Source: Neptuniibacter marinus
Lineage (GTDB): Bacteria > Pseudomonadota > Gammaproteobacteria > Pseudomonadales > Balneatricaceae
Length of the DNA: 64,000 bases
Direction: 5' to 3'
Assembly: GCF_001597725.1 (NCBI RefSeq)
Contig: NZ_LUTR01000010.1
Location: forward strand, 1-64,000
Shown here: one piece after another, positions 1 to 18,250 of the stretch
Position numbering within the stretch: the stretch's first letter is position 1
Layout of the letters: each line of letters starts with the position of its first letter
Notes under the pieces: generated by a model
Seen by the model: the letters and a program-made list of their open reading frames with translations, nothing else
The model's database searches: none
Told to the model about the DNA's origin: nothing
Position numbers and translations under genes: made by a program

Positions 1-75
1 GGCGTCCCATAGGGGGTTCGAACCCCTGTTACCGCCGTGAAAGGGCGGTGTCCTAGACCTCTAGACGAATGGGAC
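1..75 (-). tRNA. tRNA-Glu (TTC), clipped at its 3' end
   Basis: The reverse complement folds as a tRNA: acceptor arms GTCCCAT (75-69) and ATGGGAC (10-4), discriminator G, and CC running off the window edge, so the final A is not visible. The anticodon loop between CCGCC and GGCGG reads CTTTCAC, giving anticodon TTC. The T arm contains GGTTCGAACC. It closely resembles enterobacterial tRNA-Glu. The next gene upstream on this strand is not visible; the ORF at 217 is divergent. Confidence 0.96.
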
Positions 76-216
76 GCAACAAGCTTCACCAGCTCATTAA
101 AGCGGGGGAAATAATACTGATCTAACATTAAAAATACAAGTATTTTATTTGATTATTTACCTATAAAATCAGAGCTGTTTCCGATAGTGTAAAGTGATTA
201 GAAATAGGACACTTTC

Positions 217-957
217 ATGAGCCCAACTTACATAGCAGTTATTATTCTTTGTGGCGTTGCTCTCATGGCCTGTATAGCCTTTGTCATACAGGATATTGAA
301 AACAAAAAGCGTGAACGTAAGCTTCGCTTAATCAGTTTAAAGTCTGGCATTCGTAGGGCATCTCATCTACTGGATGCCTTCCCCCCCATTCTAATGACTA
401 CCGAAATCCGTTCCCTACTTTGCAAATATTTAGAAGCTCGCTGGACAGCAGTTGTCGAATTAGATTCGAGCGAAAGCAATAAACAACAAAGAGCCACCTT
501 TCAAGCTCAAGCAGCTATTTTGCCAGAACCAGTAGCTCATCCATCCGGCTCCATGACCATATTTAAAAGCCATACAGAAGCAGCCAGAGCAATGGGAATC
601 ATAAAAGAGCTCGCTCAATTCATTACCGACATAAAAAATAAAGGCGAAATCAACCACGACATTGCTGATAACTTAACAAAAGGTGCGAAACAGACCTATG
701 CACGTATAGAGGTCGATGTAGAACTACTAAATGCAATGGAAACGGAGAAGTCTAGAGGCCCTGAAGTTGTTATACATCATTACCGTAGCTGTTTTAGCAA
801 ACTGCAAAATCTCAATCACCACCAAACACTCGATCGGCAGCTATACGAAATTCGCACACACGTCGGCCAACTGGCAGAAAAAATAGATGCGGCAACAGAA
901 GAAAAAGCAAAAGAGAAAGCAGAGGAACAAGACTCAGGTAAAAAGTTTAACTTCTAA
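217..957 (+). CDS. Membrane-anchored protein of unknown function
   Basis: A 246-residue protein I do not recognise. Residues about 4-24 form one hydrophobic helix (IAVIILCGVALMACIAFVI) followed by a basic KKRERK stretch, which fits a type II anchor with the bulk in the cytoplasm. The rest is hydrophilic and looks helical, and the tail (about 220-240) is rich in E, K and A, suggesting a coiled coil or a flexible acidic/basic end. No catalytic motif is visible. An AGGA sequence precedes the ATG at a suitable distance. It converges on the YeeE gene with only 10 bases between stops and no obvious terminator. It stands alone between a tRNA and a transporter, so context does not suggest a role. Confidence 0.75.
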   Translation: MSPTYIAVIILCGVALMACIAFVIQDIENKKRERKLRLISLKSGIRRASHLLDAFPPILMTTEIRSLLCKYLEARWTAVVELDSSESNKQQRATFQAQAAILPEPVAHPSGSMTIFKSHTEAARAMGIIKELAQFITDIKNKGEINHDIADNLTKGAKQTYARIEVDVELLNAMETEKSRGPEVVIHHYRSCFSKLQNLNHHQTLDRQLYEIRTHVGQLAEKIDAATEEKAKEKAEEQDSGKKFNF

Positions 958-967
958 CCACTGAAAG

Positions 968-2017
968 TTATTGCTTCCGATCAACAAAAGTATCGGTCAG
1001 ACCTGCCCCAGCCCACATAGAAGCCAAAGCAATCCAAGCCGTAATAGAAAACGCAGAACCTCCAGTTAATCCTGCACCCACGGCACAGCCACCAGCCAGC
1101 ATCCCTCCCATCCCCATTAGGCATGCACCCATAATGTAGCGCACCATACTACTACCATCTTTAAACCCCTCAAGCTTCAACGTACGGGAAAAGAAAGCAG
1201 CTAAGAACGAACCGATAAAAACACCAGGCACGAGCCCAACATCAAAATCCATTGGCGCCCCACCCGGCGTCAGAAAGTACATCAAGGTATCAGCAGAAGG
1301 TCCTGTAAACGTCATGCTCTCAACTTGTGTAGATTCGAATGTTTGATAAGACATATGATAAGTAAACCACCAGCCGCCTACGACCATAGATCCAACACCC
1401 ATAGAACCAATCCAAGCCCACGGCGTCAGTTTATTTTTTATACCATAGATCACAGCCACTACAGCACAGGCGATACTGATATATATGCCGGCATAATCAC
1501 CTAAGCCAAGAAAACCTAATAATTCCAGCCCCCCATCTTCATGTAGTAAAACAGAATGGGCAACAGCATCCCTAGCCGGTGCAAAAATACCCCGTAAACT
1601 CGCTTGCGCTATAGCAGCAAACAATAAGCCTGAAAACAGAGCACGAAGGTTTCCTGTGGCTGCTAGCACAAGCAAGCGTGCTCCGCAGCCTCTCGCCAAA
1701 ATCATACCCGCACCAAACATGAGTCCGCCAAGCACTGCACCCGATAAACTTCCATAAGATGCCAGCATTCTAGAATCAGTAATATCCAGCTCACCCATCA
1801 GAATAAGCGCTTGAGTCCCGCCTACCGCAGCAGAAAAAGTTAACAGCCAAATAGCCACCTTAGGCCCCATATTTCCACGCACAAATTCAACAACCGCGGC
1901 TCGTAAACAGAACTGACTTCGCTGGGCAAACACACCAAACATTAGCCCTAACATCAGTCCACCTAAGGCTGTTGCGCCATCTTCACCTAAGCTATCAATT
2001 AAAAAATCGAAATCCAT
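968..2017 (-). CDS. YeeE/YedE family membrane transporter
   Basis: A 349-residue polytopic membrane protein of the YeeE/YedE family, whose studied members import thiosulfate or related sulfur species. Visible family signatures are the N-terminal GVFAQRSQFCLRAA motif (about 28-41), a central ARGCGARLLVLAATGNLRAL motif and a C-terminal AGGCAVGAGLTGGSAFS motif. Each carries the conserved cysteine in a glycine-rich loop, as expected for a pore built from repeated halves. About nine to ten hydrophobic segments can be counted. Substrate is inferred from the family, not shown. An IS3-type element begins about 40 bases upstream of the ATG, so the native promoter has probably been displaced or cut. 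No partner gene such as tusA or a rhodanese lies next to it. Confidence 0.9.
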   Translation of the reverse strand: MDFDFLIDSLGEDGATALGGLMLGLMFGVFAQRSQFCLRAAVVEFVRGNMGPKVAIWLLTFSAAVGGTQALILMGELDITDSRMLASYGSLSGAVLGGLMFGAGMILARGCGARLLVLAATGNLRALFSGLLFAAIAQASLRGIFAPARDAVAHSVLLHEDGGLELLGFLGLGDYAGIYISIACAVVAVIYGIKNKLTPWAWIGSMGVGSMVVGGWWFTYHMSYQTFESTQVESMTFTGPSADTLMYFLTPGGAPMDFDVGLVPGVFIGSFLAAFFSRTLKLEGFKDGSSMVRYIMGACLMGMGGMLAGGCAVGAGLTGGSAFSITAWIALASMWAGAGLTDTFVDRKQ

Positions 2018-2097
2018 AATGGCTAAACCTATACATAAACGTTAAAGCTAATAGGTACGGTAATCCTCCCATTTTTAACTGGCGCTAAAAGTAGAAG

Positions 2098-2913
2098 TTA
2101 TGCCACCATTAACGGTGATTTACCGCCATTGGCTTTGTGCGGCCGCTCATGATTGTAAAACCATAACCAGCGTGTTGCATAGTCCTGTACTTCCTCCAGT
2201 GTTTCGAATAGGTGCTTGCTAACCCAGCTATATCTGAGTGTGCGGTTGTGACGCTCAATATAGGCATTTTGTTGTGGGTTGCCTGGCTGAATATATTCGA
2301 TGCGTATTTTGTACTTCAGCGCCCACTCTGTGAATTCATGACTGATAAACTCTGGGCCATTATCACAGCGAATAATCTGTGGCTTACCTCGCCATTCAAT
2401 CAACTGATTAAGCGATCGTATGACTCGTATTGAGGGTAATGAGAAGCCTGCGTCTATCGCTAACCCTTCGCGCTTGAAGTCGTCTATCACATTAAACAGG
2501 CGGTATTTCCGGCCGTCAGATAACTGATCATGCATGAAGTCGATGGACCACACCTGATTTCTGCGTAAGGGCTGTTTCAAGGGTTCTGGTTTATGTCTCT
2601 TCAGTCGCCTACGTGGCCGTATCCTGAGATTGAGCGACAACGCGCAGTAAATACGGTAGACCCGCTTATGGTTCCAATGAAAACCTTTCACGTTACGCAG
2701 ATACTCAAAGCACAGACCAAAGCCCCAATCAGACTCTTTATCTGTCAGCTTGATTAGCCAATCAGCGATTTCGGCATTCTCTGAATCCAGCTGCGGCTGA
2801 TAACGATAACAGCTTTCGCTGATGCCAAAGGCTACGCATGCCAATCTGATGCTAGATCCTTGGGTGGCAACGGCCTGTTGCGCCATCTCTTTTCGCTGAG
2901 ACGGCTTTACCAC
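2098..2913 (-). CDS. IS3-family transposase OrfB (DDE catalytic domain)
   Basis: A 271-residue frame in the -1 phase relative to OrfA, beginning at a GTG inside the frameshift site. It carries the HTH_21-like region ([20 protein letters not shown]) and the rve integrase core: first Asp in VWSIDFMHD (about 125), second in [10 protein letters not shown] (about 185) and Glu in [10 protein letters not shown] (about 221), followed by the family's C-terminal YNHERPH motif. All three DDE residues are present and no internal stop is seen, so the element could be active. The functional product is expected to be the OrfAB fusion. Confidence 0.93.
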
Positions 2914-3173
2914 TTTTTTTGTAAAGCCTCTTGGACAATCTCAGCCTTGAGGCGTTCTTCGGCATACATCTTTTTGAGACGCCGGTTCTCTTCTTCCAGC
3001 TCTTTCATACGGGCCATTAATGAAGCATCCATGCCGCCGTACTTTGCACGCCATTTGTAGAATGTTGCTGAACTCATGCCGTGTTCACGGCACAACTCAG
3101 GCACTGGCGTGCCTGCTTCAGCTTGCTTAAGGATTGCCATGATCTGGCTGTCGGTATAACGTGATTTTTTCAT
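2907..3173 (-). CDS. IS3-family transposase OrfA (HTH and leucine-zipper subunit)
   Basis: An 88-residue frame with the transposase-8 type helix-turn-helix ([20 protein letters not shown], then [17 protein letters not shown]) that recognises IS ends, followed by a heptad-like helix ([20 protein letters not shown]) used for dimerisation. ATG at 3173 is preceded by GGAG in AGGAGATTCTC. It ends in EALQKKW and overlaps OrfB by seven bases at an A-rich slippery run, so OrfA is both a stand-alone regulator and the N-terminal part of the OrfAB transposase. Confidence 0.93.
2913..2919 (-). promoter_or_regulatory. Programmed -1 frameshift site A AAA AAG in the IS
   Basis: On the minus strand OrfA reads CAA AAA AAG TGG TAA. 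The heptamer A AAA AAG (2919 to 2913) is the classic slippery sequence of IS3 elements. A -1 slip gives AAA AAA GTG GTA, entering OrfB and bypassing the OrfA stop six bases on. Confidence 0.85.
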
Positions 3174-3243
3174 GAGAATCTCCTGTGTCTAGATTACGAG
3201 AAAATTCTACTTTTGAGGACCGTTAATTTTCGGGGGGATTACC

Positions 3244-3636
3244 GCACCGCGCACAAAAAAAGAGACTCACAATCTCACGCTCAATTGAGAAAGGAATGAC
3301 CACTGAGGGCTATTAGATTATTTCTGGATGGAATAATAACAAAACAAATTAGTATATAAATTGACCTATACCAACAGGCGAGCAACTTTATTAACATTAA
3401 CTAATAAAGACAATTGTCGGATGTAGTTGGTACTGGAACTGAGTTCCAACTTAGCTGGATTGCCTAGACCTCTTGTATAGCAAGGCGTTCAAGTGATTTC
3501 ATATCCTCTTATCTAGCATACATAATCCAGTTGAAGATGGAACTCGTAAAACTAGATCTTGCAATTCCACTATCTAGGAATGATTACCGAGCATTGGGGT
3601 AAATACATGAGATTATTTTTTACTATAGACAGCTAG
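3244..3636. other. Intergenic stretch between the IS and the accessory genes
   Basis: No convincing ORF or RNA is visible in these roughly 390 AT-rich bases. The one notable element is a copy (3419-3440) of a short sequence that recurs at 13558 on the far side of the helicase operon, including a small palindrome GGAACTGAGTTCC. The region is downstream of the minus-strand gene at 3637. Confidence 0.5.
3419..3440 (+). repeat. Degenerate direct repeat, left copy flanking the accessory block
   Basis: GGATGTAGTTG followed within three bases by CTGGAAC. The same two words in the same order and orientation occur at 13558-13577, and weaker similarity continues on both sides (CTAAT..ACA upstream, TTGCCTA downstream). 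It could be a diverged boundary or attachment repeat. Similarity was judged by eye only. Confidence 0.4.
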
Positions 3637-4161
3637 TCACAAGAAGCCGTAATCAGCGGAAAGCTCGATTGCCCTCCCTTTTGCTTTAAAAGCCCCCTTA
3701 AAGCTCTCATCCTTTAATAGAGAAATATTCATAGGTTCGTTTACATCTAATATTTCAGTCTGAATGAGTATTAGTGCATCTACATCTAAGAGTGCTAAAA
3801 CAGAACTATCTACACCATACTCTGGGGTATTAATCATCTCTGTAGCAGTAGCAATGGGAAGCCTTTTGTACCATTCTTTGAAAAAATCGGGCACTTTATC
3901 TAACAGCCTCTGTACTCTTTGACCGCCTATTGGCTCTCTCACAATATCGAATCTTATTCTGTCTTCGTAAACATCGAGATCTGTATAAATTGTTTTACCA
4001 AGCAGTCCCTCATCAAGCCGAAGAAACACACAGTTTTTGGACCGCATATCTATAGCGAATGTTTCGCTTACAGGGTAACACCCAGAAAGAATCTCTCTTC
4101 TGTCATCATCTATTACGTTTCGAATAAAGATATAAGTTCTTAGCTGCGGAGAACCAGGCAT
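3637..4161 (-). CDS. Hypothetical protein, 174 residues
   Basis: I do not recognise this protein. It is a soluble-looking 174-residue chain with alternating strand-like hydrophobic segments (RTYIFIRNVI, KNCVFLRL, DALILIQTEILDV) and no signal peptide or obvious catalytic motif. Its ATG lies inside the 3' end of the small membrane-protein frame at 4106-4294 in a different phase, so the two are probably translationally coupled, or they are one gene split by a frameshift. Base composition is AT-rich like the defence genes upstream. It lies downstream of the RloC-like gene on the same strand, separated by about 280 bases from the end of the small ORF, so whether it belongs to that system is open. 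Confidence 0.55.
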   Translation of the reverse strand: MPGSPQLRTYIFIRNVIDDDRREILSGCYPVSETFAIDMRSKNCVFLRLDEGLLGKTIYTDLDVYEDRIRFDIVREPIGGQRVQRLLDKVPDFFKEWYKRLPIATATEMINTPEYGVDSSVLALLDVDALILIQTEILDVNEPMNISLLKDESFKGAFKAKGRAIELSADYGFL

Positions 4162-4294
4162 AGCTCAGGTCAATAGCTTGAAAGTGCAAGCTAATCGATT
4201 TATGTAATGATTGGTAACTGAAAAGGCCAATAACCCCTAAAGCCAAACCAAAGACAAAGGTTTTTAATTTTTTCACTTTAACAAACACCTCCAC
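4106..4294 (-). CDS. Small single-pass membrane protein overlapping the next gene
   Basis: A 62-residue frame starting MEVFVKVKKLKTFVFGLALG, with a basic N-terminus and one hydrophobic helix (about 13-28), then a soluble tail. It overlaps the 174-residue frame at 3637-4161 by 56 bases in another phase. Either this is a genuine small protein whose translation is coupled to the downstream gene, or the two are the N- and C-terminal parts of one membrane-anchored protein split by an indel near 4160. The sequence alone does not decide. No function is assigned. Confidence 0.4.
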   Translation of the reverse strand: MEVFVKVKKLKTFVFGLALGVIGLFSYQSLHKSISLHFQAIDLSYAWFSAAKNLYLYSKRNR

Positions 4295-4326
4295 ACTTAA
4301 TAAATCAATAGTTTACTAGTGAAAGA

Positions 4327-4452
4327 CTAACCATTAGTATTGCCTTGTTGCCACTTAGGCATTTCTCCAGTCTTATACACTCGACGTAGCTTATTACATT
4401 GGGTAATGAGGCTACCTGTGGCGGGCACAGGTACAATATGGAGATTGCTCAT
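4327..4452 (-). CDS. Possible 41-residue ORF
   Basis: An ATG at 4452 opens a short minus-strand frame beginning MSNLHIVPVPATGSLITQ and ending in PKWQQGNTNG before TAG. The composition looks more protein-like than the 68-residue plus-strand frame across the same bases. There is no strong ribosome binding site and no recognised family. It lies between the RloC-like gene (ends 4573) and the small membrane ORF (starts 4294), on the same strand, and could be a small gene or the relic of a larger one. Confidence 0.25.
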   Translation of the reverse strand: MSNLHIVPVPATGSLITQCNKLRRVYKTGEMPKWQQGNTNG

Positions 4453-4572
4453 GTTGAAAGTTGTTGATGTACGTCAGTACACTCGCTTCAGACTAGGCAA
4501 GCTTGAGATAGTGTGTAAGCACCGTCGAAGGCTACCTAAGCGATAAACCCCAATGCCTTTGTGGTGACAACC

Positions 4573-6765
4573 TCATTCCAACATTCTCTGGTAATGGTTT
4601 AGATCATCCATTTTGTCAAATACCATCTTGAACCTTTCTAAGTAAATTTCTGGCTGAACATCCATCATAAAGCCCATATTAGTAGGATCAGAATGTGACT
4701 CCCTGTTCACATAGCGATAGAAAGACTTAAACCCCTGATTAGGCTCTTCGTCAGCTAATTCATTAAGGATGATACCCAGTTTTTCTTTCTTATGAACAAA
4801 ACCAAAGTAATGCTCAAGTATATTTCTCATTACATTAGGTAAAACCACGGGATCAGTGTTCGAATCCCTGACATCCTTCAGTATCTGCCAAAGCGACTGA
4901 TAGTCATTTTTTATATCACCAGACTCAATAGGGCTTATCTTTGAAAATTTATTCTTGCTAATTCTGAATAAAGAATAGTTATTATTAAACCTTTCTTTAT
5001 TGTTCGGAGATAGCTTTATAAGCTCGTGATAGAAAAATAAGCTATGCGTAAGAACAAGCACTCTTTTAAATCTAGCTCCTCTAATCAACTCATTATGAAT
5101 TAGGGAAGCAACATCGTAGACATAATTCTGCGATAGACTAGAAATAGGGTCATCAATCACTATGAACTTTTCAGAATCATTAACATCCCCGTCTTTTCTA
5201 TCACTACCATTACACAGCTCAATAAAGTACAAAAATGCAATTAAAGTTTTCTCCCCCTCACTCAAGCTTCTAAACACATTATCTTCGCCTATTTCTCTAC
5301 TAATTTTAAAAAAGTTATCTTCCTCACCTTTCTTATATTTTTCTATTTGAAAACCAACCAAACCAAGGGATAATAAGTTAGCATTTATACGTTCAATCGT
5401 TTCATCAATATTAGACGACTTCTTTCTCAATAAAAGAATTCTATCTCTAACCTTCCTACCAACCTTTTCAACCCTATCTAAATGAGCAACCTTTTCATCT
5501 ATTTTAACACCTAGCTTTCTTTTCCCCTCAATCTCAAGGCGAATTATATCGTCAACCTGACCTCTTAAAACGCCCCACATTCTTTCTTTTAAATCTTCTT
5601 TGCTTTCTTTTATTTTAGCCGTCTTAGAATTAACAGCTCGAACTTCCTTATTGATCTCAATCGCTACCGAGGCTAGATCAGAAACTTTATCATTACAAAA
5701 TCCAGCCTCTACAATTCTATTAAGATCTTTGCTCTTCAAAGAAATCTCTTTTAAATTATCATTCAGATAAGATTCAACAAGTTCAATCAACGGTGATACT
5801 TTATGTACACCATCATTAAAAAGAGCACAATCTAAAAATGCGGAATTCAATCCATCAATATAAGTCTTTATGCTATTCTTGTACTTATATTCAATTTGAA
5901 TTATTCTTTCTAACCTCTGTTCATATGATTTGTCAAAAAGTTTTCTAAGCTCATCATGAAAGTCTATAGAGATAGTATTACTCTGACAGAAAGGGCATTT
6001 TTCCTGACCTTCTCTCAAGTACAAATCTCTTCCTTCTTTAACCCAGCTCAAACCATCAATCTCTTCAATAAAACTGGAAAGCTGGCTATTATCAGATCCT
6101 ACAATAGGCTCCTTCAATATCAACCTTTCTTCATCTGTTAGGTCTCCAAAAACAGGCAGCACAACTTCCTTTAAAGAAACACCATCAAATTCAATGAGCG
6201 AATCCATTTCACTGACCAAGTCAGACAGCATGGTTTCTTCTAGTGGCTGATAGCTTTTAACTTTATTATAGAAACTAGATTTAGGTCGAATAAAGCCCTT
6301 CAAGAATTGTTCTAAAGAGGTCCCCTCCACCCCTTTCTTTTTCTCATAAACTTCAGAAATTCCCTTCTCATTAATTCGAGTTATCTCGAGTTCAAAATCA
6401 GTTTTCTCTCCCTTTAAACACTTATACTTTTCGCCAAGCCTTTTCCTTAGTTTTTCTTTGGAGGCAATCTGTCTTTCAATATCCCCATTATTCTTACTGA
6501 GTGTGAAAACTCCTTTCTGCTCCTCTCTATTAAAAAAGTTATCATCAATAAACTGATGATTATAAACTAGAGGAACACATTCGCCGTCTAATTCAAAGCC
6601 ACACTCAGAGTATTCATGAGTCTCATTATAGATATACCTTGATATTGTGGACTTCCCTGTTCCATTAAGACCAAACACAAAGATATTATTCTTTGATAAG
6701 TCCAGCCGCTGTTCTTCGTCAGGGTGATAACTGGCCACTCCCTTAATACTTATATAATTACTCAT
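4573..6765 (-). CDS. RloC/PrrC-like ATPase with zinc hook and anticodon-nuclease-like C-terminus
   Basis: A 730-residue protein of the AAA_13 / COG4694 type, which includes the tRNA-cutting phage-exclusion enzymes PrrC and RloC. Walker A is GLNGTGKST (32-40). A long coiled-coil middle carries CPFC (257-260), a Rad50-like zinc hook typical of RloC. The ABC signature is LSEGE (501-505), Walker B FIVIDDP (534-540), D-loop SSLSQ, and the H-loop is in LTHS (572-575). The C-terminal part has R647-NIL-E651-H652 and a later RESH with H691, matching the Arg/Glu/His arrangement of the PrrC anticodon nuclease, though the E-to-H spacing is longer than in PrrC. Known members sense DNA damage or restriction failure and cut tRNA anticodon loops; that activity is inferred here. 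It is the last gene of a three-gene operon, 19 bases after the 706-residue gene. Composition is markedly AT-rich. Confidence 0.8.
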   Translation of the reverse strand: MSNYISIKGVASYHPDEEQRLDLSKNNIFVFGLNGTGKSTISRYIYNETHEYSECGFELDGECVPLVYNHQFIDDNFFNREEQKGVFTLSKNNGDIERQIASKEKLRKRLGEKYKCLKGEKTDFELEITRINEKGISEVYEKKKGVEGTSLEQFLKGFIRPKSSFYNKVKSYQPLEETMLSDLVSEMDSLIEFDGVSLKEVVLPVFGDLTDEERLILKEPIVGSDNSQLSSFIEEIDGLSWVKEGRDLYLREGQEKCPFCQSNTISIDFHDELRKLFDKSYEQRLERIIQIEYKYKNSIKTYIDGLNSAFLDCALFNDGVHKVSPLIELVESYLNDNLKEISLKSKDLNRIVEAGFCNDKVSDLASVAIEINKEVRAVNSKTAKIKESKEDLKERMWGVLRGQVDDIIRLEIEGKRKLGVKIDEKVAHLDRVEKVGRKVRDRILLLRKKSSNIDETIERINANLLSLGLVGFQIEKYKKGEEDNFFKISREIGEDNVFRSLSEGEKTLIAFLYFIELCNGSDRKDGDVNDSEKFIVIDDPISSLSQNYVYDVASLIHNELIRGARFKRVLVLTHSLFFYHELIKLSPNNKERFNNNYSLFRISKNKFSKISPIESGDIKNDYQSLWQILKDVRDSNTDPVVLPNVMRNILEHYFGFVHKKEKLGIILNELADEEPNQGFKSFYRYVNRESHSDPTNMGFMMDVQPEIYLERFKMVFDKMDDLNHYQRMLE

Positions 6766-6784
6766 AAAAATCCCTCTTAATAAA

Positions 6785-8905
6785 TCAATTTTCTATGTAT
6801 AGCTCTGTGATTTTCTGGAGAATAGATTTTTTAGAAGATTCAGAATTATTCAACAGATCAAAGGTCAAACTACTAAAGAAAAGTTTAGTCACTGGCTGCT
6901 CTAACGGAGCAAGCTTGTTACCTTCTCTATCAAACACTAGAACGTTCCTTGTCAGGCGCTGCTTATCCATCGTTTCCTGAGCGGGTTGCTGCTTCGTCAC
7001 AAAGTACCTTGCACCATCAGTGCCACAATCCTGGATAAAGGTCCTGTATCTAGTTCCTTTTGAGCTGTAGGTCAGATAGTAAGGTAAGGGAGTCTCTTCT
7101 ACTTTATTCGTCCTTGAGATCCCATCTGCAGATCGACTTCGCTCAACATTGTCGAATACTGTGTTACCAATGACGTTTGGCACTCTTGCTGAATGATAGG
7201 AATTAAGAATCTGTCCCGAATCTTTATCATGGATGAAGAAATGGTTATCCCTTAGACCTTCGAAAATTGAGTCCGCCCATGGCATAGTAACTGGCTGTAA
7301 GAAATCGTACTCAAAGCTGAAGCGACCTGCAGTCTTGTCGTCATACCTTTTATGAGAATTAATCTTTACTCCTGACTCCCCAGTGGTGACATCTACCACG
7401 GAGACGTAAGTACGATATCTGCGCCCCAAATTGAACCTACGAACATAGAACAACTCAAGATTCGCTTCAGGAAGAGAAAAGCCTGTAACCAGCTTCTTAC
7501 GAAATACTGACTCTTTTAGCCATATCTCATTTCGTACTTTCTTGATGATATTCTTATTGAATTTCTTCAGTTCTAATGACGAATCAGCTACATCCCCACC
7601 AGCAGACTTTACTTTCTTTGATACCTTGAAGACATCAACACCCTGTATCACACAAGGAATCTCTTTGGATAGTCTCTCTAACTTTGCTTCAGTGTAATAA
7701 TCCAATTCAATATCACATTGAGAAGCCTTCTTAGCAAGCGCTTTAGAGAATGACTTCAGTTCTTTACCATCTTTCTGGGTACGGATACTCGTACCCTTTG
7801 ATCTATTTAGCTGATTCACCACTAAATAGTTCTTTTCATTCTTTCCTATAGTTTCAATACTTGGAGCATCCTTTAGCGGAATAACTGAAGAAGCACTGAA
7901 TTCAGTCATCAGATGATCATGAAAAGCGTCTTTGATTTCATCTGTCTCATAGCAATTCAGCCCATCAACAATTACTAGTTCATCGCTATAAGATTGGTCA
8001 GGCTTAACAAACACCTCACAAACATGATCCGCACAGAACACTAATGGTTCGTATCTAATATGAGCTTCTATGAGGAGACTGATTATCTTGTTCTGGATAT
8101 CTGTTTGGTGAAAGTTAATCGAGTTGTCATAGCGCGAAAGAAGCTTTTTCTCTTCTTCCTCACGTGACTTCAAGGTCAGTCCCATATAAACGCGCTGAGA
8201 CTCTTTAGTGGAGTTTAAGGACTTGTTGACCCTGTATTTGCTCTTCTTGGAGCGAAAAACAATAGCCCCTTGATCACCTTCGGCCACAAAAGTATCTATA
8301 AGAGAGCAGTCAAAAACTTCTCGATGGAGAGACAGTGATATCTCATCAAAGTCTGAGTAATAGATCTCATAGCTAAGTGCTTCAATGATGACATTCCCAT
8401 CAGGCTTTGTATCTCGAATGAATGCCCCCACGAACATCTCATCGTTATACAGCACAGGCTGAATATCATAAATTTCAGCAGCCTCTTCAAGGTAATCAAG
8501 CTTTATAAATAACGAAAGAAGAACCTGGGCTGCCTTTTGAGTTGAAATACTATTTTCTTCTAACTCAGTCAGCAGATCTTCTGATTTGGAAGATTTTGTC
8601 CCCAGATAAAAGAAAACCGCTTTCGAGTTTGAGATTCTTCCACGCGAATACTTAACTTCATCCTTGGAATTTAAACCTAGCTCATTTCGAATGTACTGTT
8701 TAATGGCACGATCAAAGCGCTGGAAGTACTTCTCTGTATCTTCTCCTGACGCTTTTTGGCAGATCATAATACCGTAACAAACTTTCCCCAGAGGGCGATC
8801 TATCAACATCAACCGATCAATTACACTATCAATTGATTCAATGACACTAAGCATGTTGGTCCGTGCTACAGGTGCGCCCTCAACCTTCTTAAAAATGCTT
8901 TCCAT
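6785..8905 (-). CDS. Unrecognised 706-residue protein of the helicase operon
   Basis: I do not recognise a family. The chain is soluble, with no signal peptide or membrane helix. Residues about 1-280 look mostly helical. A strand-rich segment at about 286-320 (PLVFCADHVCEVFV, ELVIVDGLNCYETDEI) precedes a basic helical part (about 360-470, with EIPCVIQGVDVFKV at 415-428) and a strand-rich C-terminal half (YRTYVSVVDVTTGE at 498-510; RYFVTKQQ near 633). No complete nuclease, ATPase or methylase motif is evident. It starts 7 bases after the helicase-nuclease stop and ends 19 bases before the RloC-like start, so the three are almost surely co-transcribed. A role as the specificity, sensor or nucleic-acid-binding partner of the helicase is plausible but only inference. 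The order of the segments after 286 faintly recalls a MID-PIWI layout; I could not support that. Confidence 0.7.
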   Translation of the reverse strand: MESIFKKVEGAPVARTNMLSVIESIDSVIDRLMLIDRPLGKVCYGIMICQKASGEDTEKYFQRFDRAIKQYIRNELGLNSKDEVKYSRGRISNSKAVFFYLGTKSSKSEDLLTELEENSISTQKAAQVLLSLFIKLDYLEEAAEIYDIQPVLYNDEMFVGAFIRDTKPDGNVIIEALSYEIYYSDFDEISLSLHREVFDCSLIDTFVAEGDQGAIVFRSKKSKYRVNKSLNSTKESQRVYMGLTLKSREEEEKKLLSRYDNSINFHQTDIQNKIISLLIEAHIRYEPLVFCADHVCEVFVKPDQSYSDELVIVDGLNCYETDEIKDAFHDHLMTEFSASSVIPLKDAPSIETIGKNEKNYLVVNQLNRSKGTSIRTQKDGKELKSFSKALAKKASQCDIELDYYTEAKLERLSKEIPCVIQGVDVFKVSKKVKSAGGDVADSSLELKKFNKNIIKKVRNEIWLKESVFRKKLVTGFSLPEANLELFYVRRFNLGRRYRTYVSVVDVTTGESGVKINSHKRYDDKTAGRFSFEYDFLQPVTMPWADSIFEGLRDNHFFIHDKDSGQILNSYHSARVPNVIGNTVFDNVERSRSADGISRTNKVEETPLPYYLTYSSKGTRYRTFIQDCGTDGARYFVTKQQPAQETMDKQRLTRNVLVFDREGNKLAPLEQPVTKLFFSSLTFDLLNNSESSKKSILQKITELYIEN

Positions 8906-8912
8906 GGAAGTA

Positions 8913-11900
8913 TTACCCTTTCAAAAGCTCAATAACAGTCTGGTTAATATTGATCATCTGCTTTACTACAGAATCATTAGTCCTCTGCCCATCTCTAGCC
9001 TTCTTGTCATAGTAGCGATGAACGATTTTAAAGAGATTCAAAAAGTACTGAGTACCCCCATCATGATCCTCTCTTCTTATAAACAACTCATTCTCATCAT
9101 AGTGTGCATTCACATAGATGAAGACAGGAGTAATGCCCTTGGCCTTCAATGCCTGTGATACTTGGTCCATTTTTCTTTTTGATTTAGCAAATGCTTCTCT
9201 GGAGTTCGTTTCCTGATCAAATCTACTAGACCAGCTTTTCACATCTACGCACAACATTCGATCATCTGACTTGATGTAGAAATCAAATAGCTCATATGAA
9301 AATGATCCTATCTGCTCAAAGCTTTCTTCTACAGTGAGTGGTTCTAGCTCTAGCTTGTCTAGGCACTTCTGGAATATGTACTCACCCACATTACCCTTAA
9401 AGAGGGGAATAACCGCTGGATTTGGAAGCCAGCCCTGATCCTCGGTGTCACTGAGATCAAATAGATATCCCAATATGCTAGAAGCCGTACCATCTTCATT
9501 TTTGGAAGCTTTGTGATAACCAGGAATAATTGACTCATATGGTCGGTATACGACCGTTCCCCCCTTCATGTCTGAAAGATGGTTTTGGCCTTTATTAGTT
9601 CGACATATAACTATATCCGTTTCAGTATCTTCAGGCTTAATGTAGAGAGCATTGATGATCGAGGAGAGATAGCTATCCTTCTTAGCTTCAGGCAACGCTA
9701 GTAACCTATCGATATATCCCTTGGGGTTAACAACACAGTCAATATGTCTAAAAGCTTCGTTCAGCTTAACTGCAGTTAGATCTGAAGTACGTCTTACATC
9801 ATTCAACCTGCGCCCTTTGAAATCACTCTTAAAGTACTCATCTATTGATCGAGCTTGCTTTCTTATATGCGCTTCAAACTGCTCTCGCGCTTTAACGTCA
9901 CTGAAAGATCGTTGATCAATGAAGTTCATGCAAAAACTCATGAGTTTATGATTCAACAAAGACATACTTTCAATACTGAGCTCGTTGCCTTGCTTCTCCA
10001 GCTGCTGGAACTGAATTGCTATATCCTCAATAAGATCTTCTGGAAGATAAATCTCAGTACTGATCCTGGTATCTCTTCTTTCAACACGGCCTACAGCCTG
10101 CATAATTTGACTAAGGATAGCCATTCGATGCTCGTTCATGAGTATCTTGTAGTTATCCCCTTTAGTCAGATTCACATCGAACTCTTTGAGCTGTATAAGT
10201 TTGCCTGAGCTGGCATAGTGCTTAAGAAGCAGGACGTAATTTGAAATGCTGTTCAGTCCAGAATCAGTCTTTATAGATGAATAAAATGGACCGTTCGCAA
10301 GAACCAGCCTTTCAAAGTCTTCAGTAATCTCTGACCCCTTGTAACGAACAAACAAGTTAAGCCCTGTTCCTGCGCTCTTATATGAAGAAACAAAAGCGAT
10401 TTTTAAGTTTGGATCATCTACTTCTAGCCACTCATCCATCTGGCTTGTTTTTGGCAAATCAGCATCAAACAAAACCAACCTGATTGCCGTCCTGTCTTTG
10501 AAAGGAGTAAGCTCAATTACCTTCTGCGTTTCATCAAGAACATTAATGGATGCAATCCTGTCTGCAGCAGAAGTTTTTAGATACTCTCTGAAAGCCTTAG
10601 AGAAGTTATTCGTAAGTGAAAGAGTAAGTGTATTTTTCCCTTCATAAGCAGCGAGAAGTACTGACTCTAACACTCTGGATAACTCTTTACGGTGGTACTT
10701 ATTCTTACTGCGAAGGTGCTTCTGCAGCGGTGTATAAAAAGCTTTGAATACCTTTTTAAATAAAGCATCTTCTCTAGAGCCGTTTATGACATCATTTTCG
10801 GAATCTTCAAAAGCTCTGATATCTATATTTCTATACAGCTCTCTCTTTTCTCGAACTTCAACAAGCCTAGCTATATCCGAAGACGTTCTTGAGTACACTT
10901 TGTACCCCAGATTCCTTCTCGCATCTTCACCAAATAGAGCCATGGGCTTACGTGCGTAATTTCCGCTATAGATGTCACTAAATCCGCTCGTAGCACTGAG
11001 AGTAATCACCGAGTTTCGAGTGCCATACAGTACCCGCTGCAATGTCACTTCAGGTAACTCTTCAAATAGATCAAGCTTAAAGTTAACGAATATTTTGTCT
11101 TTTAATTCAGGAGCCTGGTACGGCAAAGAATCAATTTTAGTAATGGAGAAGACGATCTTAGGAGTAAAGTAGGTAAAGAACTCATCAATATAAAGACTGT
11201 CATCTTCCACTCGATCAAACAACGAAGAGAGGCTTACACGCGATTTCTTAGCCCTCATAATGAACTGCTTGAGAGGCGTATTCTGATTGTATTCGTTACC
11301 ATCACTGATCATCGATTCAAAGTGTTCATCTTTGATCCTTGAACATGCGTAGAAACAACAAATAATCACCTGCATGATGTCATACATAGTGGGATTAGGA
11401 TCGTGCTCTTCTCTCTCATAATAGATCTGACAAACAGTATCATTGTAGAGAGATTTTAAACGTATCTTCTTCAATGCCTGTTCATTAAAGAACCTTTTAG
11501 GTGTAAGGCTAAAGACGTTCTTACATATTTGGATAACCTGCTCAACCTCAGAGCTGTCGATGAAAATATGCTCGACACTACTGCGGAATAAACTGAGTAT
11601 TTCAATCAGAGTGTTGTCAGATACGACATTGCACTTGGAACCAAAGGTGGAGATCAGATCATCCCTGAACTTCCTTTTGGTGTCATAAAACGTTATTTCA
11701 TCAGTGCTTTCTTTGGTGCCTTCAATGGTGGACACAATCCTGTATACGGCAGAGAGGATATGGTCCATTTTGAAGTTGTTATCAAAAAGCTGCTTGTCAC
11801 AACTATTGAAGAAGAGCTCGTAAGCTACATGCTCTTCATCCACAATCAGGGTGAAATCGATACTGTTCTTTCTGAAGAAGTTGTCAGGGTCTAAGACAAA

Positions 11901-13361
11901 ATAATTATGCTTTATAAACTCCACTTGCTGCTCGAACGCCTGACCGTTCATATCTGCCAGCGTCTCTTCTTCTAGTTTCTTTTTTTGACCCAAGATGTAA
12001 TCGAAAGGCCTAGAAGTAATTGCTACTTCATTGTCGTCGTTTGTTACAGCTATATGGATGTTGTAATCAAATTTACTTGAGGTAGCTAGTAGAATACAAG
12101 GAAAGTACTTCGCTCGTTCAAACGGAAGAACAAAGTCCAGAATCTCAGCATAGTAGGCATACACATTTTTAGGCTTACCATTTTTCAAAATTTCTTTTGA
12201 AAAAATAGCCTCGGATGTGAGTCGTTTGTCCTTTCCAGCTTCTATGTTAAGAATCTCTTTTGCTATATCTGATAGCGTCTTAACCATAATGTTGGAGTTT
12301 TTCTGGAAGCTTTCTCTAGCCTCCTTCAGGTCTTCAATTATGCCATAGCTTTCAAGTTTCTCAATCCTATCCGTCAAGTACTGAGCGTTATTCACCTGAT
12401 ACTTAAGGCTGCTGATCAACTTCTTAACTTTTGCTGCACCTGGTCCATCAGCACTAAAGAAGTTTATCCAGCGTTCAAAGACGTATCTGTTCTCTTCATT
12501 AGTAATCCAGTTTTTAAATTCCAGCCCAGACATATCAGGACGTGCCAGAAAGCTGAGAATATGTATACCCTTAGTACGAGCGTTCTCAATAAGCTCTGGA
12601 TCAATATCAATCTGAGCCTTAAGGGGAGTAATAAAGAGAAGATTACGGTGCCCATCTTGTTCACATGAGGGATCTGTCTCATCAATGTACTGAGCTATAA
12701 CGCTGTAAGACTTACCTGTTCCAGTACCATCATTAGAGTAGGTAATAGAAGGGTTGAGCTTGAAGTATGAGTCATAGAGCTTGCCTAACTTCGCTCTTGC
12801 ACCGTTTATTTCTTTCTTCTCATCTTCAGGAATAAGCTTGTTTTCTAGTTGATTAGAGTCTGTTTGTTTAAAAGCCATTGTGTATGATCCGTCATGTTCA
12901 GGTCTGATCAAACGTTCATCTATAGCGACTTTCTTAACCAGCAAGAATGGGAGTTTAGATGAACAGGTAAGACGAATTGCTTGATCGATATCGCTGACAC
13001 TTTCAGCATGCTTACGGAATGACTCTAAAAGGCGCTGTTTCTGATCATCAGATATAGCTGAAAAGTTTGGATTAACGGTCAAACGAGAAATTTCAGTTTC
13101 TGTAACACGCTTTATCCCAAACTTCTTCGTGCTGTGACTGTGTTGGTAGTGAAATAAAAAACCCATCTTTGCCATTTGATATAGAATGGCTGCTTCATCC
13201 CTTTCTAAACTTACAGATTCAGATGATGCAAACTCTTTATGAATCCTGATAAGGACTGGGGAATTGAGATCAATCTCCTTACCACAAGATCGCAAGCCAT
13301 CCAGATTTTCACAAACAATCTTAAATAGCGTTTCTCGTTCTAAATTAGTCCATATAGCCAC
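8913..13361 (-). CDS. Large SF2 helicase with C-terminal PD-(D/E)XK nuclease domain
   Basis: A 1482-residue protein. Helicase motif I is GTGTGKS (212-218), motif II is DEEH in TLIVDEEHVAYEL (508-511), motif III SAT is in VITLSATSGF (789-791), and motif VI is QAVGRVERR (1088-1096). The roughly 290 residues between motifs I and II hold a long, probably helical insertion. Near the C-terminus the residues E1327 (NVGEYIF), D1360 (ELFDFYI) and D1373-V-K1375 (CVDVKSW) form a PD-(D/E)XK nuclease signature, so unwinding and cutting are probably fused in one chain. It is the first gene of the operon with the 706-residue protein and the RloC-like ATPase. The layout resembles known helicase-plus-partner defence systems, but I cannot match it to a named one. 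A dyad lies about 50 bases upstream of the ATG. Confidence 0.8.
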   Translation of the reverse strand: MAIWTNLERETLFKIVCENLDGLRSCGKEIDLNSPVLIRIHKEFASSESVSLERDEAAILYQMAKMGFLFHYQHSHSTKKFGIKRVTETEISRLTVNPNFSAISDDQKQRLLESFRKHAESVSDIDQAIRLTCSSKLPFLLVKKVAIDERLIRPEHDGSYTMAFKQTDSNQLENKLIPEDEKKEINGARAKLGKLYDSYFKLNPSITYSNDGTGTGKSYSVIAQYIDETDPSCEQDGHRNLLFITPLKAQIDIDPELIENARTKGIHILSFLARPDMSGLEFKNWITNEENRYVFERWINFFSADGPGAAKVKKLISSLKYQVNNAQYLTDRIEKLESYGIIEDLKEARESFQKNSNIMVKTLSDIAKEILNIEAGKDKRLTSEAIFSKEILKNGKPKNVYAYYAEILDFVLPFERAKYFPCILLATSSKFDYNIHIAVTNDDNEVAITSRPFDYILGQKKKLEEETLADMNGQAFEQQVEFIKHNYFVLDPDNFFRKNSIDFTLIVDEEHVAYELFFNSCDKQLFDNNFKMDHILSAVYRIVSTIEGTKESTDEITFYDTKRKFRDDLISTFGSKCNVVSDNTLIEILSLFRSSVEHIFIDSSEVEQVIQICKNVFSLTPKRFFNEQALKKIRLKSLYNDTVCQIYYEREEHDPNPTMYDIMQVIICCFYACSRIKDEHFESMISDGNEYNQNTPLKQFIMRAKKSRVSLSSLFDRVEDDSLYIDEFFTYFTPKIVFSITKIDSLPYQAPELKDKIFVNFKLDLFEELPEVTLQRVLYGTRNSVITLSATSGFSDIYSGNYARKPMALFGEDARRNLGYKVYSRTSSDIARLVEVREKRELYRNIDIRAFEDSENDVINGSREDALFKKVFKAFYTPLQKHLRSKNKYHRKELSRVLESVLLAAYEGKNTLTLSLTNNFSKAFREYLKTSAADRIASINVLDETQKVIELTPFKDRTAIRLVLFDADLPKTSQMDEWLEVDDPNLKIAFVSSYKSAGTGLNLFVRYKGSEITEDFERLVLANGPFYSSIKTDSGLNSISNYVLLLKHYASSGKLIQLKEFDVNLTKGDNYKILMNEHRMAILSQIMQAVGRVERRDTRISTEIYLPEDLIEDIAIQFQQLEKQGNELSIESMSLLNHKLMSFCMNFIDQRSFSDVKAREQFEAHIRKQARSIDEYFKSDFKGRRLNDVRRTSDLTAVKLNEAFRHIDCVVNPKGYIDRLLALPEAKKDSYLSSIINALYIKPEDTETDIVICRTNKGQNHLSDMKGGTVVYRPYESIIPGYHKASKNEDGTASSILGYLFDLSDTEDQGWLPNPAVIPLFKGNVGEYIFQKCLDKLELEPLTVEESFEQIGSFSYELFDFYIKSDDRMLCVDVKSWSSRFDQETNSREAFAKSKRKMDQVSQALKAKGITPVFIYVNAHYDENELFIRREDHDGGTQYFLNLFKIVHRYYDKKARDGQRTNDSVVKQMININQTVIELLKG

Positions 13362-13408
13362 AAGTACATCCTTTAAACTTGTTTAGGCCTACTGGGAAAA
13401 GAGTTACA

Positions 13409-13426
13409 GGAATACTGAAGTATTCC
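13409..13426. promoter_or_regulatory. Perfect dyad upstream of the defence operon, possible operator
   Basis: GGAATACT-GA-AGTATTCC is an exact 8+8 inverted repeat with a two-base centre, 48 bases upstream of the helicase ATG at 13361. It has no T-run, so it is not a terminator. Its size and position suit a dimeric repressor site in the operon's leader or promoter. No regulator gene lies next to it, so the binding protein is unknown. Confidence 0.4.
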
Positions 13427-13557
13427 GAGGTAAAAGAAGGGAAAAAGAGCTTTACAATAATCCCTGTAAAAACCTGACCACAATCCCAGTGCCAGTTTCG
13501 TAACGAATATATCTTTAATATCAGTTAATTGGGTAATAGTCTAATGACATCCCTCTG

Positions 13558-13604
13558 GGATGTAGTTGATCTGGAACAGGGTAGTAGTTGAATCCAATTC
13601 AACT
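13558..13604 (+). repeat. Degenerate direct repeat, right copy, with a palindrome
   Basis: GGATGTAGTTG at 13558-13568 followed by CTGGAAC matches the copy at 3419. Immediately after it, AGTTGAAT-CCA-ATTCAACT (13586-13604) is a perfect 8+8 inverted repeat. The pair of copies brackets the helicase operon and its companion ORFs. Confidence 0.4.
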
Positions 13605-13629
13605 TGTTGCCTAATGAGGAACTAAGATA

Positions 13630-13797
13630 TTACTTCTGTTTGCTCAATCGGGCTAAAACTTCCCGATCAGACAGAATTCCATTTGATGCCAGAGAGATTA
13701 AGTCAACCGGCTCATCCTTCAGATCAAAACCTCAAAGGTTTATATTGCCCTTCACAATACTTAAAAGCGCATCGACAGGAAGGTCAGATGAAATCAT
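13630..13797 (-). pseudogene. Remnant of a small protein, possibly VbhA-like antitoxin, with in-frame TGA
   Basis: The minus strand reads from ATG at 13797 as MISSDLPVDALLSIVKGNIN, L, then TGA, then continues in the same frame as GFDLKDEPVDLISLASNGIL and SDREVLARLSKQK to TAA at 13630. The C-terminal part (a G-[FL]-x-L opening, a helix, an S/A-x-G-I-L turn, then a DREVLARL helix) resembles small VbhA-type antitoxins, judged from memory of the pattern. One stop codon interrupts it, so I list it as a relic. The overlapping plus-strand ORF (13604-13813) looks like a shadow. Confidence 0.3.
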
Positions 13798-13912
13798 GGG
13801 CGATAACCTTTAAAGGAGGGATAACTCTAAGCCCATATATCTAGCGACGTAACCGCTCCTTTCTGTATTCGGCTAAGAAAAACCTCAGAGCCAATCACTA
13901 CCGATCAAAAAA

Positions 13913-15792: not shown

Positions 15793-17112
15793 ATGAGTGA
15801 AATCTACGATGTCTTAATAATTGGTGCCGGCCCTGCAGGGCTGAGTTTTGCTCGTTCCTTAGCAGACCTGCCGCTTAATATCGCTATCGTAGAACGATCA
15901 TCAGAAACAACACTGGCAGAACCTCCCGAAGATGGCCGAGAAATAGCTCTCACCCATCAATCCGTAGAGATCATGAAAGCTTGTGGCGCATGGCAAAGAC
16001 TACCCGCGGAGTCGATCTCACCTATCAAAGCAGCCAAAGTGTTTGATGGTGAATCAAGCTACAGCTTAAATTTTGATAACTATATTCAAGATTTAGAAGC
16101 CTTAGGCTACCTAGTCCCCAACCACCAGATCCGTAAAGCTTACTACGCAGAACTCATATCTCACCCTCAGATAGACGTTTTAACTGAAACCCTTGTGGAA
16201 ACAGTGACAACAGATGAATACAACGGCACAGCAATTCTCAGCAATGGCAAGGAACTAAAAGCTAAGCTAATTATTGCTGCGGATACGCGTTTTTCTGAGA
16301 TGCGTCGTAAAATGGGGTTATCTGCAACCATGAAGGACTTTTCAAGAAGCGCAATCGTCTGCCGAATGGAACATGAAAAGTCACACCAGCAAACTGCATT
16401 TGAATGCTTTCATTATGGTCGTACAACCGCAATCTTACCCATGAACGGAAACCGCTCATCCATTGTAGTTACTGTTAATAGCCGTGAAGCACAGCACTAT
16501 GCTGAAATGAAAGAAACTGACTTTAACCAGACGATAGAACAGCAGCTAACTGGCTTACTTGGTGGGATGCAACTGACCGGTATACGTCATATCTATCCAT
16601 TAGTTGCTGTACACGCTAATCAATTTGTAGGATGTCGCTTCGCCTTAATCGGTGATGCCGCTGTAGGTATGCACCCCGTCACAGCTCACGGTTTTAATCT
16701 TGGACTTAAAGGACAAGCAACCTTAACTAAATTAATAGCACAAGCTGTGGCCGATGGAGAAGAGATTGCTAGTGAAACACTGTTAGCCAACTACGAATCA
16801 GAGATGATGCGCACTACTCGTATCCTCTACCACGGCACAAACTTAGTGGTAGGCCTATTCACAAACGACACTTTGGCAGCAAAAATAGCACGTAAAGCGA
16901 CCCTACGTTTGGCAAATAATATTACCCCGATAAAGCAGCTTATTACCCAATCTCTGACTGAAAAAGAATTAGATCAAGCAAACCCACTACAGGTATTAAA
17001 AAATTACCTACCGCCCCAACCAGCTTCCCTACCTATAAATAAGGTAAAACAGAACTTAGAAAAGAAGATATTGAACAAATTTAATCCGGCGGCGTTCTTT
17101 AGTTCTAACTAA
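15793..17112 (+). CDS. UbiM-like FAD-dependent ubiquinone hydroxylase
   Basis: A flavoprotein monooxygenase of the UbiH/UbiF/COQ6 family. The N-terminal dinucleotide fold is IIGAGPAGLSFARSLADL. DGREIALTHQS and LGYLVPNHQIRKA follow, and the second FAD motif is LIGDAAVGMHPVTAHGFNLG. DGREIALTH and the overall pattern are most like UbiM, which hydroxylates ring positions in ubiquinone synthesis. At 439 residues it is longer than usual because of a C-terminal basic tail of about 40 residues (from LKNYLPPQP). ATG 15793 is chosen over the in-frame GTG at 15784 because AAGAGG lies 8 bases before it. A hairpin follows at 17208. UbiM versus another member of the family is uncertain. Confidence 0.8.
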   Translation: MSEIYDVLIIGAGPAGLSFARSLADLPLNIAIVERSSETTLAEPPEDGREIALTHQSVEIMKACGAWQRLPAESISPIKAAKVFDGESSYSLNFDNYIQDLEALGYLVPNHQIRKAYYAELISHPQIDVLTETLVETVTTDEYNGTAILSNGKELKAKLIIAADTRFSEMRRKMGLSATMKDFSRSAIVCRMEHEKSHQQTAFECFHYGRTTAILPMNGNRSSIVVTVNSREAQHYAEMKETDFNQTIEQQLTGLLGGMQLTGIRHIYPLVAVHANQFVGCRFALIGDAAVGMHPVTAHGFNLGLKGQATLTKLIAQAVADGEEIASETLLANYESEMMRTTRILYHGTNLVVGLFTNDTLAAKIARKATLRLANNITPIKQLITQSLTEKELDQANPLQVLKNYLPPQPASLPINKVKQNLEKKILNKFNPAAFFSSN

Positions 17113-17207
17113 ATTATCCCTTATAGGGGCAAATGAGTGTTGAAGATCATTCTGCCGAAATTGCAGCAGAGCGGTAATTTAAAACCAAAATTCATCAACA
17201 AGCGTTT

Positions 17208-17236
17208 GGCACGCCTACCTTAGACGTGCCCTTTTT
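17208..17236 (+). terminator. Probable intrinsic terminator of the UbiM-like gene
   Basis: GGCACG (17208-17213) pairs with CGTGCC (17225-17230), with a possible CTA/TAG inner pairing, followed by CTTTTT. It lies between the convergent UbiM-like gene and the secreted-protein gene. Confidence 0.6.
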
Positions 17237-17248
17237 CCAAAACCTTAC

Positions 17249-17980
17249 CTAATTCAGCCTCACAGCTAGGTAATGAATCCCCTGACCTGATAGCTGAGGC
17301 AAAAAGTAAATATCTCTATATTGAAAATACTGCTGTCCATTGATGGTGACCGACGCTGCGCCTTGGGGCAAAGCGCTATAACTGTTACCCAACTGAAAGT
17401 TGCTACTCCGGGTAGGTAAAATAGTCGTACTACGGATAATCGTGCCACTCGGTGCTTCAACTACACGGTAATAGCCATTATCAAACACATAGTAAATGCC
17501 TTGAACAGCATAATAGGAGCGCCCCTTTACTATGACCTTTTCATGTCCATTGGGTAGATAACGAATTTTTAAACCCAACGGTGGACGAACAACCGTATAG
17601 CCTTGATGACCATAGCGATAATAGAACCCGTCATTAAAGACAAATGACACACCTCCAAAATTAATGGATATTCCCTTCGCTGGTGCTTTATGAACAACCG
17701 CACCGGTTTTATAAACCTTCCGCTGCGGAACGCTATGCTGGCGATATACAATTGTCTTGTGCGATACAACTTTAACCGGAGCACCCTTATGATGACCCGG
17801 ACTCTTTTTCGTTTCCTTGCCCTTAGATTGTTTATTCTGATTCTTTTTATTTTGACCTTCTATAGATTTAGTCTCTTTATAGTGTGCATCTTTATACTGT
17901 GAGTCTTTTCCTTGAGCGGCACCCGTCGTTGGCAGCACAATCAAACTCATAACAAGGGGTAATAGGATAGTTAATTTCAT
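17249..17980 (-). CDS. Secreted DUF6515-like protein
   Basis: A 243-residue protein with an N-terminal signal peptide (MKLTILLPLVMSLIVLPTTG, cleavage near AAQG) and a Lys/Gln/Asn/His-rich, low-complexity linker (about 25-75). The C-terminal half has tandem Tyr/Gly-rich segments (FNDGFYYRYGHQGYTVVRPP, then YYVFDNGYYRVVEAPSGTII, then YRDIYFLP). This pattern of YY plus a PP/APxG turn and LPxGxxxV strands is that of DUF6515-type periplasmic proteins. Function is unknown. The His/Lys-rich part could bind metal or anions, but that is only a guess. Confidence 0.75.
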   Translation of the reverse strand: MKLTILLPLVMSLIVLPTTGAAQGKDSQYKDAHYKETKSIEGQNKKNQNKQSKGKETKKSPGHHKGAPVKVVSHKTIVYRQHSVPQRKVYKTGAVVHKAPAKGISINFGGVSFVFNDGFYYRYGHQGYTVVRPPLGLKIRYLPNGHEKVIVKGRSYYAVQGIYYVFDNGYYRVVEAPSGTIIRSTTILPTRSSNFQLGNSYSALPQGAASVTINGQQYFQYRDIYFLPQLSGQGIHYLAVRLN

Positions 17981-18250
17981 CGCGTTACCTATCTAAACCA
18001 ATTAAGTTAATAACCATACTACGCGGAAAAAATAACAAAAAACTCGACTTAGCATAGCTTTACACTACCTTTGCACTTCTTGACGGCCCTTAACATTTAA
18101 CGATGAACTGGTGCACCTTCATAGACACATTGATTTCTTTCTAACCAAATAAGCCAGATAAAAAAGGCACAAATAATACGCGTACTAAGCTATACCAAGA
18201 TAGAAATAGCATTCAGGGAATAGGCATAAAAACGTTAAGCTAGGATCTCT

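Follow-up and report, generated by a model that had tools for sequence, protein, structure and literature searches.

An ApsAB-type pair with an adjoining RloC-type gene on a probable Tn7-like transposon remnant in Neptuniibacter marinus

Positions 3415-13905 of the Neptuniibacter marinus DNA analysed here (a stretch of 64,000 nucleotides, hereafter the window) are very probably the remains of a Tn7-like transposon, carrying ApsAB and then RloC as cargo, with RloC as an independent passenger. Judged from their sequences, genes 1 and 2 of this island are ApsA and ApsB, distant marine members of the ApsAB antiplasmid system, and gene 3 is an RloC-type anticodon nuclease by the published sequence definition. 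ApsAB, RloC and Tn7-like defence cargo are each already known; what is fresh is that ApsAB would travel on Tn7-like elements next to a neighbour that can be swapped. Tests of ApsAB to date used E. coli copies; the present loci place it on marine-bacterial Tn7-like elements, where gene content changes abruptly behind apsB. The features discussed below are as follows.

2059..3243, minus strand: IS3-like insertion, lacking in the sister genome (L066), between a YeeE-like gene and the transposon end
3415..3470, no strand: candidate retained Tn7-like transposon end, begins TGTCGGATGTAGTTGGTACTGGAAC, common to L002 and L071
3637..4161, minus strand: ORF of 174 aa between rloC and the transposon end (ORF list)
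4573..6765, minus strand: rloC homologue, ABC-type ATPase with zinc hook and anticodon-nuclease triad, 730 aa (Pfam, PADLOC, motif scan)
6785..8905, minus strand: apsB homologue, Argonaute-like, MID-like motif, 706 aa (E. coli ApsB homology and motif residues)
8913..13361, minus strand: apsA homologue, SF2 helicase with C-terminal PD-(D/E)XK nuclease, 1482 aa (E. coli L032 homology and motifs)
13362..13905, no strand: apsA upstream region, holding the 3' portion of an ORF whose L002 counterpart is longer (alignment with L002)

Identity of the three island genes

The island carries three minus-strand ORFs with no internal stops, at 13361-8913 (gene 1, 1482 aa, GTG start), 8905-6785 (gene 2, 706 aa) and 6765-4573 (gene 3, 730 aa), separated by 7 and 19 bases. 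This is the order and spacing that an earlier, sequence-only reading had given, and the AT-rich composition it described is also observed, mildly so (33-41% G+C per kb at 4-14 kb versus 40-48% at 1-4 and 14-30 kb). By alignment to the sister genome the island ends at 13905 and host sequence is back from 13906; the flank from 13913 is chromosome common to members of the genus, with genes that, by their sequence features, probably encode MobA-like, response regulator, methyltransferase and monooxygenase proteins. On the other side, the IS3-like insertion is a separate event outside the system, and its two overlapping ORFs (2098-3173) presumably encode an IS3 transposase, again by sequence features. 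The setting between an IS3 element and housekeeping genes holds as to the insert and the chromosomal flank, the gene names being putative. The 174-aa ORF, possibly further cargo, matched nothing in Pfam, PADLOC or NCBIfam up to E 1.

ApsAB is an antiplasmid pair of a helicase/nuclease and an Argonaute-like protein, described in E. coli ST38 (Zongo et al. 2024, PMC11096173). Gene 1 shares 34.9% identity (507/1452 aligned) with ApsA of E. coli locus L032, and gene 2 shares 27.2% (184/677) with E. coli ApsB. The earlier view of gene 1 as a helicase-nuclease is borne out by SF2 motifs (GTGKS 214-218, DEEH 508-511, SAT 789-791, QAVGRVER 1088-1095) and by the C-terminal PD-(D/E)XK nuclease residues D1360 and D1373-V-K1375; the residues it had singled out, K217 in Walker A, D1373/K1375 and H691 of gene 3, are correct. 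Gene 2, which that reading could not classify, can be assigned from its sequence as the Argonaute-like ApsB: Y404, K408, Q421-G422, K464 and the C-terminal N706 match E. coli ApsB one for one, and the Y, K, QG and K464 positions are kept in all 12 aligned rows, the C-terminal Asn in 11 of them. In L032 itself, ApsA (GFGKS 218, DELH 532, QAVGRVER 1140, D1433-V-K1435) and ApsB (Y409, K413, Q431, K489, N743) carry these residues at the published ST38 positions. Two motifs of the window protein differ from L032 by one residue each, with T in place of F and E in place of L; the published residues all have their counterparts. A homologue at 28/25% identity was still plasmid-destabilising, and activity was abolished by helicase and MID mutations and partially affected by a nuclease mutation (PMC11096173). 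The full match at published residues, together with identities of 34.9/27.2% that exceed those of this active homologue, lends support to the ApsAB assignment, and the pair can no longer be called unnamed.

Family databases give little further help. Apart from hits at chance level and a NERD nuclease match in Pfam that fell below threshold (gene 1 residues 1322-1406, E 0.018), genes 1 and 2 matched no family in Pfam, PADLOC or NCBIfam, and PADLOC-DB 2.0.0 misses both ApsA and ApsB here. A PADLOC match of gene 2 to DrmA (E 0.0053) and a Pfam match of gene 1 to MlaC (E 0.022) were treated as chance. Reading gene 2 as a pPIWI-RE protein, an idea prompted by its MID-like stretch, found no support in Pfam. 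An AlphaFold2 model of ApsB from three sequences reached a mean pLDDT of 28.7; the ApsB profile matched no solved structure, and genes 1 and 3 taken singly, and likewise the profiles A3 and A2, gave nothing meaningful against solved structures.

DdmDE, the plasmid defence of Vibrio cholerae, follows a common plan of a helicase-nuclease with an Argonaute-like protein, and the nuclease domains at the C-termini are related by profile comparison (probability 95.8%, E 7.9e-9). That the window pair is DdmDE rather than ApsAB is nevertheless highly improbable. Genes 1 and 2 had no PADLOC DdmD or DdmE match up to E 1, whereas both L026 proteins and the L027 partner did match; the L026 proteins also match solved DdmE and DdmD chains. 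ApsB and DdmE profiles are unmatched (hhalign probability 0.2%), and gene 2 has the MID motif, reported absent in DdmE (PMC11096173). Between ApsA and the DdmD of the L026 pair the nuclease domain is the only detectable common part. Because the shared portion is confined to that domain and ApsB does not match DdmE, we read the pair as ApsAB.

RloC was defined as a protein of 658-897 aa with ABC ATPase motifs, a CX2C zinc hook and an Arg-X3-Glu-X36-52-His triad, the His often preceded by Ser (Davidov and Kaufmann 2008, PMC2610378). Gene 3, earlier described as RloC-like, agrees with this definition throughout. Its 730 aa fall in the defined range; its ATPase motifs are GLNGTGKS 32, LSEGE 501, FIVIDDP 534 and HS 574; the zinc hook CPFC (257-260) lies between the Walker A and signature motifs, in an insert that splits the ATPase; and a motif scan places the triad at R647-x3-E651-x39-H691, with S690 before the His. 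Gene 3 matches Pfam AAA_13 (338.7 bits), PADLOC PDC-S06 (785 bits) and PrrC (45 bits), and its homologue RloC is reported to cleave tRNA. A tRNA-Glu lies near the island at window 1-82 (also L071 1927-2399), with several repeated copies in relatives. An Acinetobacter RloC has been reported to cut tRNA-Glu and tRNA-Gln; the correspondence is probably a coincidence.

The exchangeable place behind apsB

The sequence-only reading had treated the three genes as one system. We compared 12 ApsAB loci: the window, L002, L003, L010, L016, L017, L023, L024 (whose stretch starts at a contig start), L025 and three of E. coli (L028, L030, L031). Left aside were L004, with a broken apsA, and the E. coli copies L029, L032 and L033, which are close to counted ones. 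The locus lists used ORF length limits of 60 to 150 residues and may miss small genes. apsB directly follows apsA in 12/12 loci, while RloC adjoins ApsB in 1/12, the window alone. A same-strand gene begins less than 100 bases behind apsB in four loci (window, L002, L003, L025). That slot holds a set of dual-OB, DUF488, DUF4326 and dGTPase genes in L002, the Gabija genes GajA-GajB in L003 and, in L025, a 241-residue protein without assignment followed by a DUF2971 protein. DNA homology between the window and L002 or L003 breaks off at most a few bases from the apsB stop codon. Because apsAB is constant, RloC adjoins it once and homology ends at the apsB stop, genes 1 and 2 form a module behind which the third gene can be exchanged. 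A conserved three-gene operon is rejected on this comparison: RloC is adjacent in one locus and other systems occupy the slot in two close relatives. Two of the refuting outcomes named beforehand, a match to a named system and the absence of conserved three-gene linkage, were thereby obtained.

The L002 set runs in one direction behind apsB (16655-19709) and comprises genes for a dual-OB protein, a DUF488 protein, mSLOG-DUF4326 and a dGTPase-like protein; the DUF488 protein matches the PADLOC candidate PDC-M45C.

A true three-part system, in which ApsAB destroys invading DNA and RloC, sensing DNA ends or a failed attack, stops translation much as PrrC stands behind a type I restriction enzyme, has to be weighed against these loci, and we consider it unlikely. 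Genes 2 and 3 do share a strand across a 19-base gap free of terminator-like and minus-strand promoter-like sites, RloC is activated by DNA breaks (PMC3874168), and in E. coli EC974 (L031) an RloC-like gene lies about 8 kb from apsA, on the opposite strand with a Shango set between; a Shango-ApsAB neighbourhood is already published (PMC11096173). Against this stand the single adjoining case and the other systems in the slot of the two nearest relatives. In G427, another member of the genus, an RloC homologue moreover lies 24 bases behind the TniQ of a different Tn7-like element (L073 4712-11359), and the 18.5 kb read around it held no ApsA match; this case suggests that RloC is recurrent Tn7-like cargo. 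Plasmid records with P0001 homologues number 232, and in 96 of these the match spans at least 80% of the query, against a single plasmid record in all with an ApsA match.

Functional coupling of ApsAB and RloC is not supported by the locus comparison. With little confidence we nonetheless entertain a coupled pair, in which plasmid or phage DNA broken by ApsAB would trigger RloC and the open slot behind apsB would try out second-line modules. If true, RloC would cut tRNA as a dormancy switch in support of an Argonaute-like attacker, and the slot behind apsB on Tn7-like elements would be testing RloC, Gabija and the dGTPase set.

The probable Tn7-like vehicle and its transfer

Returning to RloC as an independent passenger beside ApsAB, a Tn7-like vehicle that would have carried both is suggested by the remaining end and by relatives. 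Tn7-like transposons carry TGT...ACA at their termini and duplicate 5 bp of their target site. In the window the end at 3415 starts TGTCGG, as in L002, and no second end was found there; L003 shares the inner 42 bases (93%) and lacks the outermost TGTCGG. Upstream of apsA, L002 and L003 carry TnsA-like, TniB/TnsC and TniQ genes by Pfam, with TnsB candidates from weak integrase-core matches, barely over the cut-off in L002 and under it in L003.

The sister genome G434 (L066) is without the island, its flanks being 93-97% identical, and its alignment to the window stops at 3414. Across the island site, window 3414 pairs with L066 3414 and window 13906 with L066 3485, with 70 L066 bases missing in the window; window 1-2058 and 3244-3414, on either side of the IS3-like insertion, align to L066 1189-3246 and 3243-3414. 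At the same site, G430 (L070) has the end motif, as a relic copy, and a piece of the upstream region without apsAB, and L067, L068 and L069 (G429, G427, G435) have no apsAB match at the island site. No tns gene lies in the window island, whose ORF list shows no unassigned ORF large enough. The L002 TnsC had no match in the window's own genome, an assembly of 117 contigs that may be incomplete. A TniB family search did recover tnsC in both G436 and G372, though it is noisy, 13 of 14 control genomes also matching; its single match in the own genome is a 755-aa ORF, not counted as TnsC because a counterpart of like length exists in all four other genomes searched. The absence of tns genes, of the other end and of the 70 bases leads us to infer a deletion that stranded the cargo.

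Such a loss could also mean that the whole is a decaying relic without function, its mobile element broken and its cargo drifting. The absent tns genes and second end, and an IS3-like insertion beside the remaining end, are in keeping with decay. All three ORFs are full length with their catalytic residues kept, and apsAB shares 97.3% DNA identity with L002, that is, a recent acquisition, which makes a relic rather unlikely. Over window 6784-13809 this identity contrasts with 65-79% for the shared chromosome on both flanks, where tRNA copies (about 99%) and two pieces of less than 150 bases (82%) are the exceptions. A 97.3% block amid chromosome of 65-79% points to recent horizontal transfer of the module. 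Nearly the same ApsAB with different partners offers a natural comparison of cooperation with mere co-travel of defence genes.

Distribution, expected activity and relation to known systems

Searches turned up apsAB homologues in Neptuniibacter sp. PT1 (L002), Amphritea balenae (L003), an E. coli plasmid record (L004) and other genomes. Among 5426 complete E. coli genomes, 147 have a DNA match, which in 141 covers at least 80% of the query. Gene 1 was searched in 369 class and 116 family genomes, matching 1 and 5, and alignment A2 in 390 order and 398 phylum genomes, matching 3 and 6, the own genome included in each case; some of these matches are of DdmDE or 1547-aa kinds. Viral contigs gave 102 pattern matches with no true relative among them, and P0005 and P0008 had no match in phage records.

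Several copies merit mention on their own account. In L004 (CP061233.1 879310-883968, a 1-Mb record) apsA is broken into several frames and apsB is intact, unlike other E. coli, where intact apsA copies are present. In E. coli MSB1_6C (NZ_LR890714.1 4559739-4571236) the apsAB match is split in two by a segment whose annotations include ISEcp1, CTX-M-14 and IS903B. L012 5341-12175 (G436) and L011 6585-13419 hold a third kind of helicase-nuclease pair, whose 1547-aa protein is related to ApsA by profile (E 2.8e-21) and whose 728-aa partner matches neither ApsB nor, by BLAST, DdmE homologues; it may be a new Argonaute-like type. The published ApsAB tree mentions intermediate helicases (PMC11096173).

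By analogy with E. coli, ApsB would hold a short nucleic-acid guide in its MID-like pocket and mark plasmid DNA, guide use being an assumption; the SF2 motor of ApsA would unwind that DNA for degradation by its PD-(D/E)XK nuclease. RloC would act as a Rad50-like sensor of DNA breaks and cut tRNA anticodons when DNA ends persist. The rloC gene is probably co-transcribed with apsAB. The apsB-rloC gap showed no terminator-like or minus-strand promoter-like site, the scans finding no more sites than in shuffled sequences, and AGAGGG precedes the rloC start, which together make co-transcription plausible.

By the same analogy ApsAB is presumed active in this host. The sequence-only reading had proposed defence against foreign DNA, which remains the likely role judging by homology, and plasmids would be the likeliest target, because ApsAB of E. 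coli cleared plasmids without protecting against eight phages (PMC11096173). This same result weighs against a complex that attacks phage DNA instead of plasmids, a reading we hold to be quite unlikely even though an antiphage-type gene adjoins the pair and Gabija and dGTPase-like genes lie beside it in relatives.

As to precedents, defence genes, Gabija among them, have been described as cargo of Tn7-like transposons (Benler et al. 2021, PMC8649781), in a paper whose main text lacks the words Argonaute, RloC and anticodon. The elements here resemble those transposons in the TnsA, TnsC and TniQ of relatives, the TGT end and the Gabija-type cargo; the window copy differs in being without transposition genes. 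Among openly licensed papers, ApsAB and Tn7 occur together in the original ApsAB paper, where a mini-Tn7 vector is used (PMC11096173), and in one other, while none joins ApsAB and RloC. DdmDE is alike in pairing a helicase-nuclease with an Argonaute-like partner and in its related nuclease domain, and unlike in its profiles and in a partner unrelated by profile comparison. The known pairing of PrrC or RloC with type I restriction also differs: it comes with linked hsdR/M/S genes, and no restriction family in Pfam, PADLOC or NCBIfam matched genes 1-3 and the 174-aa ORF, which are all the larger ORFs that the island has. With described RloC (PMC2610378) gene 3 shares size, ABC motifs, CxxC zinc hook, the R-x3-E-x36-52-H triad and the Ser before the His; it adjoins ApsAB instead of standing alone or at a restriction locus. 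With ApsAB of E. coli ST38 the window pair shares gene order, domain plan, the published functional residues and full-length homology, at 1482 versus 1569 aa for ApsA and 706 versus 743 aa for ApsB. The published E. coli pairs lie in genomic islands, while the window pair sits on an apparent Tn7-like remnant with RloC next to it.
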